Shown: piece after piece, positions 3-7,149 of the stretch
Layout of the letters: each line of letters opens with the position of its first letter
Numbering within the stretch: position 1 is the first letter of the stretch
Assembly: GCA_003697085.1 (NCBI GenBank)
Contig: RFFU01000060.1
Coordinates: forward strand, 1 to 9,648
Direction: 5' to 3'
DNA length: 9,648 nucleotides
Source: Candidatus Hydrogenedentota bacterium
GTDB lineage: Bacteria > UBA8481 > J006
Program-made: the position numbers and the translations under genes
The notes under the pieces: model-generated
Told to the model about the DNA's origin: nothing
Database searches by the model: none
What the model saw: the letters and a program-made list of their open reading frames with translations, nothing else

Positions 3-1832
3 ATGGCCGTGCAAGTCGATGGTACGATCGATTCGATGTACGGCCCCTTCATCGCGGAGGACCCCGCGGCCGACCAATCCAATTACACGAACCTGGATCT
101 GACGCATCTTTGGGTAACGCGCGACGCCGATAACTTCTACTTCGGAATCGAGATCAACGCGGACATCTTCAACACGGCTTGGGGATATTACAACATCCTG
201 ATCGACACGACCGGCGACTCGACGCAGGGGGCGCCGGACTTCAAGTCCGGTTCGTTGGGAACACTGGCGAAGAAGATCGGCTTTCCGAACAACAAACCGG
301 AATACGCCGTCATCATCCAGAGCACGAACAGAAGCGATCCGGCGAACAAGGCGGAGATTTGGAAGTGGAACGGCTCGGATTGGCAGTGGGCCGCCGCGCT
401 CGACAATTTCGCCGTCTCGACGAACAACAGTCGTTCCTACATCGAATTGGCGGTGCCCGCCGCCGACATCGGATCCCCGACGCGGATTTGGACCGAGGTC
501 TTTTCCTCCGGAAACGGAACGAACGACCCCGCTCTCGACACACTTAACAAACTCGACGGAGATACCGAAAACAACGAGTGGAACGCGCCGGACTTCAACG
601 TCGGTACGACCGGGGCCTTGGCCGTCTCGACTCCCTTCCCTCCGGCTCTTCTGCCGCCCCGCAGCGCCACCGCGCTCGCCTTCGATTCGACCGGCTTCAT
701 CTTCTTCGAGTATCCGGCGCAGAATCCCGCGCTCGTCGATCACTACAACATCTACCTCGGAGCCGATTCGAACGCCGTCTCCGCCGCTGATCCCTCGACA
801 TTGGCCGGCACGACGCCATGGAACGCCACCGTATTCGAAACGACGACCGTTCCGGCCGGCGATTACTTCGCGATCGTCGAGGCCGTCGGCTTGACGGGAG
901 AAACCGCGCTCTCGAACCTCGCCCTCCTCTCCGTCAACGCTTCCGGGGACTCGATCATCGCCGTCCAGCAGAACGAAGTCGGCCGCACAATCATCGAACT
1001 CTCGCTCTCCCAATGGAAGGCCGTCCATGCGGGAGACACCTTTTTCCTGATCCGCATTCTCGATTACAACAGCCTTTACGAGATTGCTCACTTCAACGAC
1101 ACGGCTCTGGCTGAAAAACTGGCGATGATCAACAAGGCGAACGCGGCCGTTTTCTTCGATCCGAATCTGCGTCTCGTTTCCGATTTCATCTATTCCGATA
1201 CGCTGGCTCCGCTGCGATATGTGGATGTGGTGCTCCCCGACGGCTCCCCCGCCCCCGATTCCTACCTCTCGGGAATCGATGTCCGCTTCGAAATTCCGTA
1301 CTTGACGACTTCGGACGGCGTAACACTTGAGGGGCCGAGCCTGGGCAAGGAAAAGACACTTTTGATCCGCAAACTCGACGAGGGACAATTGAAATGGGCG
1401 GAGCCGAACGCGCAGAAGACCCAGTGGGTGGAGGAACCGAACGACCGCGTCGTGGTGATTACGAGTGAATTCTCGATTTGGAACGTTCTCGTCGGAGCCG
1501 GCGTCATCAACAACCTGGACAACCTCGTTGTCTATCCCAATCCCTTCAATGAAGCCGATTACTACGCGAAAGGGCATCCCGCTCCCGCGCACGTCACCTT
1601 CGCGTTCATTCCGAACTCGACCGAACGGATCGAAATCTTCAATGTCGCCGGCGAGCGTGTCAGGACTCTCGACCCGAACGATCCCAATGAATTCGAATCG
1701 AATGGGACACATTTGATCGCGAAGTGGGATGCGCGGAACGACTTCGGCAGGAAGGTCGCGTCGGGGATCTACATCTTCTGGATCCGAGCGAACGGCCAGG
1801 TCAAGATCGGCAAGATCGCGGTGATCAAATGA
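3..1832 (+). CDS. Secreted multidomain protein with FlgD-like/T9SS-type C-terminal domain (5' partial)
   Basis: The frame is open to the window edge, so the ATG at position 3 is probably internal and the true start and signal peptide lie upstream. The visible 609 residues show four regions. Residues 1-210 resemble a DOMON/carbohydrate-binding-like beta domain (VDGTIDSMYG, then aromatic-rich LWVTRDADNFYFGIEI and NILIDTTGD). Residues 215-310 look like a fibronectin type III-like fold (DHYNIYLG, AGDYFAIVEAV). Residues 310-505 are beta-rich and I do not recognise them. Residues 509-609 are a FlgD Ig-like domain (VVYPNPFN, IEIFNVAGERV, WDARNDFGRKVASGIYIF), the type used as a C-terminal sorting signal by type IX-like cargo. 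The stop overlaps the start of the next gene (ATGA), and that gene encodes a PorV/PorQ-type barrel, which fits a cargo role. The exact substrate or activity is unknown. The C-terminal domain is clear; the N-terminal domain is a looser resemblance. Confidence 0.85.
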   Translation: MAVQVDGTIDSMYGPFIAEDPAADQSNYTNLDLTHLWVTRDADNFYFGIEINADIFNTAWGYYNILIDTTGDSTQGAPDFKSGSLGTLAKKIGFPNNKPEYAVIIQSTNRSDPANKAEIWKWNGSDWQWAAALDNFAVSTNNSRSYIELAVPAADIGSPTRIWTEVFSSGNGTNDPALDTLNKLDGDTENNEWNAPDFNVGTTGALAVSTPFPPALLPPRSATALAFDSTGFIFFEYPAQNPALVDHYNIYLGADSNAVSAADPSTLAGTTPWNATVFETTTVPAGDYFAIVEAVGLTGETALSNLALLSVNASGDSIIAVQQNEVGRTIIELSLSQWKAVHAGDTFFLIRILDYNSLYEIAHFNDTALAEKLAMINKANAAVFFDPNLRLVSDFIYSDTLAPLRYVDVVLPDGSPAPDSYLSGIDVRFEIPYLTTSDGVTLEGPSLGKEKTLLIRKLDEGQLKWAEPNAQKTQWVEEPNDRVVVITSEFSIWNVLVGAGVINNLDNLVVYPNPFNEADYYAKGHPAPAHVTFAFIPNSTERIEIFNVAGERVRTLDPNDPNEFESNGTHLIAKWDARNDFGRKVASGIYIFWIRANGQVKIGKIAVIK

Positions 1833-3424
1833 TTCAGAACAGCCACAGAGACACAGAGACACAGAGGAAGGGATATGTTTTGGCGAAAGCAGATCAAGAA
1901 ACGAATCATTCGTGGCGAAGGATTTCGTCCCGGAGAGTTTCCTACCCGCGCCTACAGCAGGAGACTCGGAGACTGCTGCCAGCACTTCCCAGCGGTCATT
2001 TCTTCATTTTTCCCTTTCTTCTTCTCTTTCTCTCCGTGTCTCCGTGGCTCTTTGGTTTCCTTTCTCCTGTTCACGCGCTCGGACGTCCCAATGTCGGAAC
2101 CACCGGCGCAGCGTTTCTCAAGATCGGCGTTTCACCACGTTTGGCCGCGCTGGGGGGGGCCTACGGGGCGCTGGGCGAGGACGTCGGCGCCATCTTTTCG
2201 AATCCGGCCGGGTTGAGTTATCTCCCGCGAAAACAGGCGGAATTCGTGCACGCGCGATTGGTGGCCGACATCAAATTGAATTCGGTCTTCTACGCCCATC
2301 CGTTCCCTCATTCCCTGGGGACCCTGGCCCTCAATTATACCCTCGTGGATTTCGGGGAGATCGAGCGAACGGTATTGCAGGAGGTCGGAGCGGCCAGCCC
2401 GTTCGCCAAGGCCGGGCAGTTCGATGCGCAGGATCAGGCTTTGACGCTGTCCTACGGTGACGACTTCCACTTCCTCAATCGCCGCTTCGAATGGGGAATG
2501 TCTCTGAAATTCCTTCACCTGCGAATCGACGAGGAAACATCCAACGGACTCGCCTACGACGCCGGACTGATCTACCAGCCGACGGGTCGGAATTACCGTT
2601 TCGGCGTAACACTCCAGAATCTCGGGTTTCTCTCGAAATTCCGGGAGGAAGCGGACGATCTCCCCTTGAACCTCAAACTCTCCGCCGCCGGAAGTTTCGT
2701 CAAGAACCGCCTCAAACTCGCGCTCGACGCCAACTTCCCGATCGACAACTCCCCGATTCTCAATTTCGGTGCGGAATTCACGCCGGTAAAGGCCTTGGCT
2801 TTACGCGCCGGATACCGATTCGACAACAACAACAGCGATTTCAAGGGATACACGGCGGGGCTGGGCATTCACATCGCCGACGTCTCGCTCGATTACGCCT
2901 ATACCCCCTTCGAACTGCTCGGGAACAATCACCGTTTCGCGCTGGGAGTCGAGTTCGGAGCGGCGGCTCGGGAGGACCGCCGATTCCCGGTGGGCCCGGT
3001 CCCGCCGAAGAAGGCGACGACCTCGCCGACGGCCTTTCCCTCGGCTCGATCTTCGAGCGCTTCACCGACGACACCAGCAAGAAAAATCAAGAGGACCATT
3101 CCCGCCCTTCGTTCCGGAACCTTCACCTGGCGCGGCGGGCCTGAAGCCTTCGAGTGGATCGCGGAGGCCAGCCCCGAGGTCTTCCGAAAGCATTTCAAGA
3201 AACAAGGTCTTTACCACCGGCGAGGTCGTTTCCTGATCGACGGTTCCTGTCAGGTGGCCGACGGAGTTTTGTACATCCAGGCCGTCCTTCATGACGGAGA
3301 CAAGATCGTCGGCGTTTTTGAATCGAGCGGTGACCCGAACCTGCCGTTCAGTGTCTGGGAACCGACAGCGAAGCAGATCGACGGCCGCATCCGCTCGCTC
3401 GGGCTCCGCCCCCTCGTCCCCTGA
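1829..3424 (+). CDS. PorV/PorQ family outer-membrane beta-barrel protein with C-terminal TolB/FlgO-like domain
   Basis: Read from the ATG overlapping the upstream stop, the product is 531 residues. A hydrophobic signal segment lies at about residues 57-83 and ends in VHA, with cleavage likely before LGRPNVG. The mature protein opens with GTTGAAFLKIGVSPRLAALGGAYGAL and then SNPAGLSYL, the hallmark of the PorV/PorQ (UPF0164) family, in which PorV shuttles type IX cargo at the outer membrane. Alternating beta strands continue to about residue 378. A Pro/Ser/Thr-rich linker (about 379-425) leads to a C-terminal domain (RGRFLIDGSCQVADGVLYIQAVLHDG) that resembles TolB/FlgO-like domains; this last match is tentative. 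The start is uncertain: ATG 1829 lacks a strong SD, and a TTG at 1880 follows GGAAGGG (1866-1872) by 7 bases. Either way, 50-80 residues precede the signal segment, which is abnormal, and they are encoded by an inverted-repeat element. The linker may hide two compensating frame changes. Confidence 0.8.
   Translation: MIQNSHRDTETQRKGYVLAKADQETNHSWRRISSRRVSYPRLQQETRRLLPALPSGHFFIFPFLLLFLSVSPWLFGFLSPVHALGRPNVGTTGAAFLKIGVSPRLAALGGAYGALGEDVGAIFSNPAGLSYLPRKQAEFVHARLVADIKLNSVFYAHPFPHSLGTLALNYTLVDFGEIERTVLQEVGAASPFAKAGQFDAQDQALTLSYGDDFHFLNRRFEWGMSLKFLHLRIDEETSNGLAYDAGLIYQPTGRNYRFGVTLQNLGFLSKFREEADDLPLNLKLSAAGSFVKNRLKLALDANFPIDNSPILNFGAEFTPVKALALRAGYRFDNNNSDFKGYTAGLGIHIADVSLDYAYTPFELLGNNHRFALGVEFGAAAREDRRFPVGPVPPKKATTSPTAFPSARSSSASPTTPARKIKRTIPALRSGTFTWRGGPEAFEWIAEASPEVFRKHFKKQGLYHRRGRFLIDGSCQVADGVLYIQAVLHDGDKIVGVFESSGDPNLPFSVWEPTAKQIDGRIRSLGLRPLVP
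1841..2050. repeat. Inverted-repeat element (CACAGAGA-type arms) between cargo and porV-like gene
   Basis: The left arm (1841-1863) begins AGCCACAGAGACACAG and contains the octamer CACAGAGA repeated in tandem with period 8 up to about 1866. The right arm, read on the minus strand from 2050, is GAGCCACGGAGACACGGAGA. The two arms agree at about 19 of 23 positions in inverted orientation, so they enclose an element of roughly 210 bp. The interior has no transposase and ends in a C/T-rich tract (about 1999-2033). Sequences of the CACAGAGACACAGAG kind are common as dispersed intergenic repeats in many bacterial genomes; that is general knowledge, not a search result. I see no target-site duplication. 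The element is open in the frame of the following gene, and its right arm encodes part of that gene's signal peptide. Confidence 0.7.
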
Positions 3425-3452
3425 ATCCTATCGGCACGGTTCCGGGAGCACT

Positions 3453-3478
3453 GATGGGAGGACCTGCTGCGTCCCATC
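3453..3478 (+). terminator. Possible weak terminator hairpin after the porV-like gene
   Basis: GATGGGA (3453-3459) and TCCCATC (3472-3478) form a perfect 7 bp stem with a 12-base loop, 29 bases after the stop codon at 3422-3424. The only T-run nearby (about 3503-3508) is some 25 bases beyond the stem, too far for a standard intrinsic terminator. It may be a processing or stability hairpin instead. Confidence 0.3.
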
Positions 3479-3530
3479 GCTTGCCCTTGCCCTTTCCCTC
3501 CCTTTTTTCGTGTGTTCCTCCACGATACGG

Positions 3531-3610
3531 CGAAAATGGAGCACAGATTTGGCAACCTGGGAACGCAGGCATCTGCCCTGCGAAAATGGGGCGCAGGTTC
3601 TCCAACCTGC
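3531..3610. repeat. Tandem hairpin-forming repeat units (CGAAAATGG...CAACCTG)
   Basis: Two 30-base units start with CGAAAATGG at 3531 and 3581, exactly 50 bases apart, and match at about 23 of 30 positions. The second unit has a perfect stem, GCAGGTT (3593-3599) with AACCTGC (3604-3610), around a 4-base loop. The 20-base spacer between the units is itself palindromic (GCAGG 3565-3569 and CCTGC 3577-3581). The first unit keeps the same layout in degenerate form. The pattern is a string of small hairpins, like extragenic palindromic repeats. I see no coding content. Confidence 0.6.
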
Positions 3611-3631
3611 GGGGCGGATTGGCGTCCGCGT

Positions 3632-3820
3632 TGTCATTCCGAGCCCCTCGCATTCGCTCGGGACAGGCTCCGCGAGGAATCCCCTTCACGCGGTATCCCG
3701 CCGTGGTGCCAATACGCCCCCCTCACCCCAACCCTCTCCCCCGAGGGACGAGGGAGAACGAAGCGGTTGTCAGCAATCTTGGGGGATTTCTCGTCGGGCT
3801 GCGCCCGCCTCGGAATGACA
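3632..3820. repeat. MITE-like element with TGTCATTCCGAG terminal inverted repeats
   Basis: TGTCATTCCGAG at 3632-3643 is matched perfectly in inverted orientation by CTCGGAATGACA at 3809-3820, giving a 189 bp element. The similarity runs deeper: the left arm continues to GCGAGGAATCCCC (ending about 3684), and the right arm read inward continues to GACGAGAAATCCCCC (3781-3795 on the complement), so the imperfect arms are about 40-53 bp. The interior has no credible protein and no transposase. Elements with TGTCATTC-type ends are widespread non-coding repeats in several phyla (general knowledge). No target-site duplication is evident. Confidence 0.65.
3718..3756. repeat. CCCTCACCCCAACCCTCTCCC-type repeat nested inside the 189 bp element
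   Basis: A C-rich tract with CCTCACCCCAACCCTCTCCC is followed at once by its imperfect complement (GAGGGACGAGGG), so it can fold into a GC-rich hairpin. This is a recognisable dispersed intergenic repeat seen in many bacterial genomes. It lies wholly within the TGTCATTCCGAG element, which suggests sequential insertion. It carries no gene. Confidence 0.5.
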
Positions 3821-3878
3821 CCACGAGCGGATCGGCAATCCGCAGACAAGAGGGCCTACGCTCCAAACCTTCCGTTTC

Positions 3879-3948
3879 CTTTTGCCTTTTGCCTTCTTCC
3901 TTTTGCCTTTTCGCTTTTGCCTTTTTCCTTTTGACTTTTGACTTTCTC
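3879..3948. repeat. Ten in-register heptamers of CTTTTGN type
   Basis: From 3879 the sequence splits into exactly ten 7-base units without a slip: CTTTTGC, CTTTTGC, CTTCTTC, CTTTTGC, CTTTTCG, CTTTTGC, CTTTTTC, CTTTTGA, CTTTTGA, CTTTCTC. The Cs recur every seven bases and variants are mostly at positions 6-7. This resembles the short tandemly repeated heptamers described in cyanobacteria and seen in other genomes. On the complement it reads as GCAAAAG/TCAAAAG repeats. It lies about 130 bases upstream of the next gene's start. Confidence 0.75.
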
Positions 3949-3953
3949 CCCTC

Positions 3954-3970
3954 CCGTGTCTTCCGTGGTT
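3954..3970. repeat. Second copy of the CCGTGTCT(T)CCGTGG repeat arm
   Basis: CCGTGTCTTCCGTGGTT matches CCGTGTCTCCGTGGCTC at 2034-2050 apart from one inserted T and one late change. In both places the motif directly follows a C/T-rich tract (the heptamer array here) and lies upstream of a gene on the plus strand. No opposite CACAGAGA-type arm is visible nearby, so this copy is solo or degraded. Confidence 0.5.
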
Positions 3971-4065
3971 CGTTATTCACAGGCAAGAATTTTCCCTTGA
4001 ATTTCTCTTTGGACAAAAAGGGACAAAGGCGTTAATTTTTCAATTCAAGAAGTTTGCAAAAACTC
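3971..4065 (+). other. Leader region of the channel-like gene; promoter not clear
   Basis: This A/T-richer stretch between the repeats and the SD site should hold the promoter. The best sigma70-like pair is TTGGAC (4009-4014) and TTAATT (4032-4037) with a 17-base spacer, but the -10 match is weak. GGACAAA occurs twice, at 4011 and 4021, as a 10-base direct repeat. I do not claim a defined promoter. Confidence 0.25.
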
Positions 4066-4072
4066 GAGGAGG
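4066..4072 (+). promoter_or_regulatory. Strong Shine-Dalgarno that fixes the ATG start at 4080
   Basis: GAGGAGG ends 7 bases before ATG 4080. The in-frame TTG at 4074 would leave only one base of spacing, so the ATG is the start. Confidence 0.85.
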
Positions 4073-4079
4073 TTTGGAG

Positions 4080-6018: not shown

Positions 6019-7149
6019 TTGGAACTGCTCGATAACCTCGTTGTTTTGACGGGGATTCCCAAAAGCGGCACATCTCTCTTGATGGATCTTCTCGACGGTC
6101 ATCCGAATTATCTGCTCTATCCGGGAGAACCCTATTTCAGAGTACTGATGTTTCGAAAATATGAAGATGCGTTTCATATGTTGGCCGATTGGTTATGCGA
6201 ACAGTCCTACGTGATGACATTGAAACCAGAGTTTCGTTCTCTCGTGGAAGGGAAGCGTTCTCGTTACAGCCGCGCTATTGATCGGGAAATTCTGAAGCCT
6301 CTGATTGACCGACTCGAGAATGGCCGGATCTCCGACGTCATTGAACGCGCAAAGATCTTTTCTCAAGAACAAAATCCCTGGGAGAAGATGAATTTCGATC
6401 TTTTTCGTGACGAGTTTTATGACTCCTTTCTCCGAAACCTCGGATCCGCGTCGGAATGTACGATCCTTATTCGGGCGGTTTTTCAGGGGTTATACTCTTC
6501 CCTCGATCCCGAAATTCGAGGAAAGGCAAGGATGTGCCTCTTCAAGGATCCTGGATTTTTTAATTTCGATCTTTTGAAACGCGATTTTCCAAAGGCAAAA
6601 TGTCTCTTTATCGCTCGGGATCTCCGGGGCACATTCAATTCCGCCCTCAGAAGTTTCCAGAAACAGAAAGGGAAATATATGTCCCGATGGAACTTACGGA
6701 GATTTCTTTTCGCTCTTAACGCGGGAAAAACGATCTTTTTTCCTGAAAAATTCTTTCGAATAAGACACTCTGGCTTTGAAAACGATATCCATGTCGTGAA
6801 ATACGAAGATTGCGTTTTGAATACGGAAACGACAATGAGATCCATCGCTCAATTTTTGGAAAGTGATTACGATGAAATTTTAACGGTTCCAACAAAATTC
6901 GGTATTCCCGTCACGACCGGCACAGCCACGAGCGCGGGGCGCGGAGAGGTCTCGGCACGTTCCGTTGAAGCCTGGAAGAAGGAACTCAATCCTTTCGAAA
7001 AGTTTTACTTTCAACAACTGATGGCGGCCGTCCCGGATTACGCCGATCTCTATCTTCCCCCTTCTCCGTTCCACTGCATTCCCCGCCTCTTGCTCCAACC
7101 TCTCATAAGGTGTCTTTCCTGCAGTTTGGCAGTTGCGCGCGGAAACTGA
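6019..7149 (+). CDS. Sulfotransferase family protein (PAPS-dependent)
   Basis: The product has 376 residues. The N-terminal strand and P-loop, VVLTGIPKSGTSLLMDLL (residues 8-25), is the 5'-phosphosulfate-binding motif of PAPS-dependent sulfotransferases. The 3'-phosphate-binding motif is CLFIARDLRGTFNSALR (195-211), with Arg200 and Ser208 in the expected places. VVKYEDCVLNTETTMRSIAQFLE (259-281) matches the family's YEDL...P..T...I..FLG region, and the tail (ARSVEAWKKELNPFEKFYF) is the usual W..EL segment. The acceptor could be a carbohydrate, lipid or small molecule; the sequence does not tell. There is no signal peptide, so it is probably cytoplasmic. The gene starts at TTG, stands alone between a terminator and a convergent operon, and is visibly more A/T-rich, with more A/T-ending codons, than its neighbours, which suggests horizontal acquisition. 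Confidence 0.88.
   Translation: MELLDNLVVLTGIPKSGTSLLMDLLDGHPNYLLYPGEPYFRVLMFRKYEDAFHMLADWLCEQSYVMTLKPEFRSLVEGKRSRYSRAIDREILKPLIDRLENGRISDVIERAKIFSQEQNPWEKMNFDLFRDEFYDSFLRNLGSASECTILIRAVFQGLYSSLDPEIRGKARMCLFKDPGFFNFDLLKRDFPKAKCLFIARDLRGTFNSALRSFQKQKGKYMSRWNLRRFLFALNAGKTIFFPEKFFRIRHSGFENDIHVVKYEDCVLNTETTMRSIAQFLESDYDEILTVPTKFGIPVTTGTATSAGRGEVSARSVEAWKKELNPFEKFYFQQLMAAVPDYADLYLPPSPFHCIPRLLLQPLIRCLSCSLAVARGN

Follow-up and report, generated by a model that had tools for sequence, protein, structure and literature searches.

A stretch of 9,648 nucleotides from a Candidatus Hydrogenedentota bacterium (hereafter the window) carries a PorV-like gene whose frame passes through an inverted repeat that also encodes most of the hydrophobic part of the signal peptide. 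The locus thus raises the question of whether a dispersed repeat landed at the start of the gene and was domesticated as part of its coding sequence, as was suggested by an initial annotation of the sequence, or whether translation begins inside the element, the other option put forward there. The coordinates of the features considered are collected in Table 1.

Table 1. Features of the window at the PorV/PorQ-family gene and in its surroundings.
Feature	Position	Strand	Remarks
Upstream gene	3..1832	+	ATGA overlap between its stop and the following start codon; shares 49% identity with its syntenic counterpart in G001
PorV/PorQ-family gene	1829-3424	+	531 codons; frame open from ATG1829
Native start ATG ATT CAG	1829..1837	+	ATGA overlap conserved with the G001 ortholog
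Left arm AACAGCCACAGAGACACAGAGACACAGAG	1838-1866	+	Three 8-bp CACAGAG units; dispersed in the genome
SD-like AGAGGAAGG and in-frame TTG (1880)	1863..1882	+	Candidate alternative start inside the element, read from sequence
Element interior	1867..1998	+	Single copy; nothing else in the genome matches it significantly
Pyrimidine tract and right arm	1999..2052	+	Encodes F58-L74 (FFIFPFLLLFLSVSPWL), hydrophobic core of the predicted signal peptide
Right arm CTCTTTCTCTCCGTGTCTCCGTGGCTCTT	2024-2052	+	Imperfect inverted match to the left arm
Native signal peptide end FGFLSPVHA	2051..2077	+	Aligned with ortholog ...PLHA, then LGR
Mature PorV/PorQ-family outer-membrane protein (predicted)	2078..3424	+	NF033709 match; 50% identical to the G001 ortholog
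CCGTGTCTTCCGTGG, related arm motif of the sister CCACGGAA family	3954..3970	+	Non-coding; extra base

The identity of the host gene was assessed by profile searches. Its product matched the NF033709 profile (PorV/PorQ family) over positions 1-326 of 326 with 165.3 bits, well beyond the curated cut-off of 90 bits, while the two equivalog profiles stayed below their cut-offs, NF033710 (T9SS PorV proper) with 55.2 of the 250 bits required and NF033711 (PorQ) with 120.2 of 220. The earlier description as a PorV-family gene therefore holds for the joint PorV/PorQ family but not for PorV or PorQ in the strict sense. The C-terminal part of the upstream gene product resembles T9SS-type sorting domains, with a score below cut-off.

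The element, of about 215 bp, begins after the start codon in the ATGA overlap and stops short of where the signal peptide ends. Its two arms, 29 nt each and separated by 157 nt, are complementary at 24 of 29 positions (83%). Folded as RNA, the 207-nt core returned an energy of -76 kcal/mol, whereas shuffled sequences averaged -58 (z -4.0), and it outfolded all but one of the 200 shuffles. An Rfam search of the window gave no match. The arms are inverted like those of a MITE, but the single-copy interior provides no conserved body, and the element is best described as a dispersed paired-arm repeat, in which inverted arms made of tandem 8-bp CACAGAG units surround a variable interior. No target-site duplication was visible by eye between 1829-1837 and 2053-2060, the empty site being deduced from an ortholog that is 48-50% identical.

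The occurrence of the arms in the rest of the genome was evaluated against reversed controls. The CACAGAGNCACAGAG pattern, with at most one mismatch, was found at 34 places (10 for the control), the right-arm pattern, which also catches reverse-complement left arms, at 38 (control 6), and the exact CCACAGAGNCACAGAG motif at 13 (control 0). The arms are thus multi-copy and the repeat is dispersed, as had been proposed; the pyrimidine tract also precedes the right arm in other genomic copies. The motif at 3954-3970, originally indicated as a second occurrence of the same sequence in non-coding DNA, is indeed non-coding and related, but it is not the same repeat, since it is longer by one base and belongs with the sister CCACGGAA family, which counts 173 copies in the genome (control 0). 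A coding-potential scan of 84 distinct arm sites of the CACAGAG and CCACGGAA types, a subset of all the copies in the genome, singled out the window copy as the sole convincing N-terminal coding insertion, and 20 ORFs overlapping other arm copies in this and other genomes showed no Pfam match; most of the sampled copies therefore appear to be intergenic.

Two further observations concern related repeats of the same genome. A menaquinone-biosynthesis gene (PF02621, 133 bits; L206:1537-2361, minus strand) takes its last residues, TAEDTE, and its stop from a CCACGGAA-type arm. A MITE-like element of about 280 bp, with ends ACCGGANTYCTGCAGG/CTTGCAGRAGTCCGGT, is present in about 17 full or near-full copies (L145-L163 and others; L060:60-240), and a similar end occurs just downstream of the G001 ortholog described below. 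This ACCGGA...TCCGGT element resembles the window element in its inner CACAGAG arm pair and pyrimidine tract, but its terminal repeats are different ones and its interior is conserved, two features absent from the window element. A derivation of the latter from the 280-bp element was rejected, neither ends nor interior being in common.

The state of the locus before the insertion was examined in other homologs. A species-level genome collection scanned for closer orthologs returned only the contig of Candidatus Hydrogenedentes bacterium CG07_land_8_20_14_0_80_42_17 (G001), the only genome of the same order that was compared. Its syntenic ortholog is 48-50% identical to the window gene and is preceded by a neighbour, 49% identical to the corresponding window gene, which ends in ...VKIGKVAIIK* and shows the same ATGA overlap. 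Immediately after the ATG the ortholog encodes an ordinary signal peptide of 23 residues, MKNKFVITTALFIFFSVAPPLHA, followed by LGRKDLG, and the element is absent. A comparison with an element-free relative, as suggested at the outset, thus revealed a gene devoid of the N-terminal extension that has kept both the ATGA start and an ordinary signal. Since this syntenic ortholog shares the overlap and lacks the element, the window gene carries an insertion, and landing of the element in the gene is well supported; the simplest reading of the two sequences is that the insertion occurred in the window lineage, with the ancestral state taken from one same-order genome. Most of the other homologs checked have a short hydrophobic signal and a nearby start codon ahead of a conserved GTTGA.FLK block. 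Identity between the orthologs was 29% at third codon positions, as opposed to 59% at first and 69% at second positions, which indicates protein-level constraint between the two lineages. This constraint on the PorV/PorQ-family protein has no bearing on the time since insertion.

The presequence predicted from the start codon consists of 83 residues, MIQNSHRDTETQRKGYVLAKADQETNHSWRRISSRRVSYPRLQQETRRLLPALPSGHFFIFPFLLLFLSVSPWLFGFLSPVHA, and is followed by LGRPNVG. Its hydrophobic peak spans residues 58-78 and is mostly element-encoded, the codons for F58-L74 occupying positions 2000-2050 of the pyrimidine tract and right arm, in agreement with the original proposal that these two parts encode the hydrophobic segment. 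The stretch ahead of it, for which 50-80 non-hydrophobic residues had been anticipated, counts 57 residues and is basic, hydrophilic and nearly all element-derived. The best 19-residue hydrophobic window scored 2.07 at residue 60; the ortholog has its best one at residue 6, with a score of 1.79. The features of a Sec signal peptide can be recognised in the sequence, as hydrophobic residues 58-78 are followed by the small-residue motif V-H-A before L, and cleavage is likely to take place before L84-G85. As the core F58-L74 comes from the element and the last nine residues, including the cleavage motif, are native, the predicted signal peptide is a chimera.

On the whole, the insertion of a dispersed non-coding repeat in a PorV/PorQ-family gene of the window lineage, with the frame kept, is well supported, and we consider it probable that the resulting chimeric presequence still directs Sec export. 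The repeat, of about 215 bp, with inverted CACAGAG arms and a unique interior, inserted just after codon 3, replacing or displacing the original n- and h-region of the signal peptide. With the frame kept, translation from the ATGA-coupled start would produce the 83-residue presequence, in which the 57-residue basic hydrophilic stretch, the element-encoded core F58-L74 and the native cleavage end FGFLSPVHA would follow one another, thus forming a long-n-region signal peptide on an otherwise unchanged protein. The junctions agree with this account, the ATG ATT CAG codons and FGFLSPVHA being the remnants of the old signal, whose n-region and most of whose core were lost or displaced. Removal of positions 1842-2048 (207 nt, in frame) leaves a signal of 14 residues, suggesting that the insertion probably cost the gene some of its original sequence. 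According to this account, ATG1829 would be used as start, the product would presumably be exported and selection would have acted on the locus after the insertion.

The reading frame itself has to be weighed against the idea that the gene is a recent pseudogene, in which the signal peptide was destroyed by the element and the frame stayed open by the chance absence of stops, an explanation that we regard as unlikely although several data agree with it. The frame from the ATGA overlap does run stop-free through the element, as first noticed, and is open from 1829 to 3424. However, the element is free of stops in all three plus-strand frames, and a first-order Markov model left one frame of it open in 23% of cases; the open frame is therefore no proof of selection. 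Codon scores ranged from -0.16 to -0.28 in the element, a non-coding-like value in every frame, and reached +0.25 in the mature part, while GC3 was 0.53 in the element versus 0.73-0.77 in native genes. Therefore, of the suggested landing and domestication of an element at the start of the gene, the landing stands, whereas domestication is a plausible inference, because the element has non-coding-like codons and an open frame of compositional origin and the genome collection scanned contained no relative close enough for a test of selection since the insertion. In addition, the near-perfect match of the left arm to other copies suggests that the insertion may be young, and the occurrence of 15 further matches to the PorV/PorQ-family protein elsewhere in the same genome points to a redundancy that could make this gene dispensable. 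Conversely, a pseudogene would have to join the start-codon frame to the gene frame by a chance of one in three, to acquire from the element a strong hydrophobic core that is correctly spaced from the native cleavage site, and to have retained the remaining 450 codons beyond the presequence, all of which are intact.

The second option of the initial annotation, a start inside the element, can be placed at TTG1880 behind AGAGGAAGG, where an SD-like AAGG lies 8 nt ahead of the in-frame TTG. The element would then provide start codon, ribosome-binding site and hydrophobic core, giving rise to a presequence of 66 residues. We judge this option distinctly improbable, because TTG is weak as a start, an out-of-frame ATG (1875) located between the SD-like sequence and TTG1880 would compete with it, and the gene has preserved its original in-frame ATGA start, although this retention is in itself weak evidence, being dictated by the Lys-stop of the upstream gene (AAATGA). 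The out-of-frame ATG and its SD-like sequence also speak against the main reading. An assembly artefact joining two unrelated stretches through the repeat is very hard to sustain, since, even if the contig is a short one from a 145-contig draft and repeats cause mis-joins, both flanks of the element match a single syntenic G001 block and the interior is single copy.

The distribution of the repeat was then evaluated beyond this genome. The left-arm motif CCACAGAGNCACAGAG was detected in 25 of the 290 genomes searched, with up to 101 copies in one of them and 0 or 1 occurrences of the reversed control everywhere; two genomes (G048 and G203) contain about 90-100 copies of paired-arm repeats each. 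Many copies form inverted pairs, such as TTTGCCACAGAGGCACAGAGACACAGAG ... CTCTGTGTCTCTGTGCCTCTGTGGCAAA (e.g. L129, L175-L191), with interiors mostly unlike between copies. The arm sequences were not found printed in a bacterial context in the open literature searched. We tentatively suggest that the pyrimidine-rich arm, stop-free and encoding hydrophobic residues, might now and then provide a working signal-peptide core to a gene in which such a repeat lands, as seems to be the case here, within a family of paired-arm repeats spread across many distant bacterial lineages.

Very different hydrophobic sequences can serve in signal peptides. This broad tolerance makes them a site where non-coding repeats may readily turn coding, and the locus described here offers an event of this kind for which the before-state can be identified (ATGA overlap, neighbour, element absent), with a division of labour between a repeat-derived core and a gene-derived cleavage end.

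A signal peptide made from a repeat is already on record, and what is new here is an example with a clear before-state. The RU-2 repeat encodes residues 1-30 of Yersinia pestis YPO1552, for which a signal peptide of 41 residues is predicted, and in homologs of YPO1552 from other genera the signal sequences, outside RU-2, are unrelated (PMC2759123). In the enterobacterial RU-2/YPO1552 case as in the present one, a small dispersed mobile repeat supplies an exported, or here presumably exported, protein with its N-terminus and with a portion of its predicted signal peptide. The two cases differ in the repeat, in the PorV/PorQ-family host and in the empty-site state, which is provided here by a syntenic ortholog sharing the start-codon overlap. 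Rickettsia palindromic elements are comparable in being palindromic repeats of about 150 bp found in frame in protein-coding genes (PMC10969869). However, they often occur in genes and encode a conserved peptide, whereas the window repeat is N-terminal coding at 1 of 84 arm sites and its interior is not conserved; a conserved peptide in frame in many genes, the hallmark of that class, is therefore not what the window repeat displays. The QMITE elements of Coxiella, also MITEs, lengthen genes in frame or become fused to them (PMC5896051). Unlike the present case, the QMITE cases considered from that paper are located mid-ORF or at the C-terminus, and its text never uses the word 'signal'.

Finally, two minor features of the window were recorded downstream of the gene. 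The intergenic region 3425-4079 is dense in dispersed-looking repeats, comprising a GCGAAAATGGRGCRCAG pair with 50-bp spacing (3530/3580), an inverted TGTCATTCCGAG pair (3627/3800), CCCTCACCCCAACCCTCTCCC at 3721 and a 14-bp CTTTTGCC tandem at 3879-3938. A sulfotransferase gene (PF13469) at 6019-7149 showed a codon score of -0.02 versus 0.12-0.38 in its neighbours, and was perhaps horizontally acquired.
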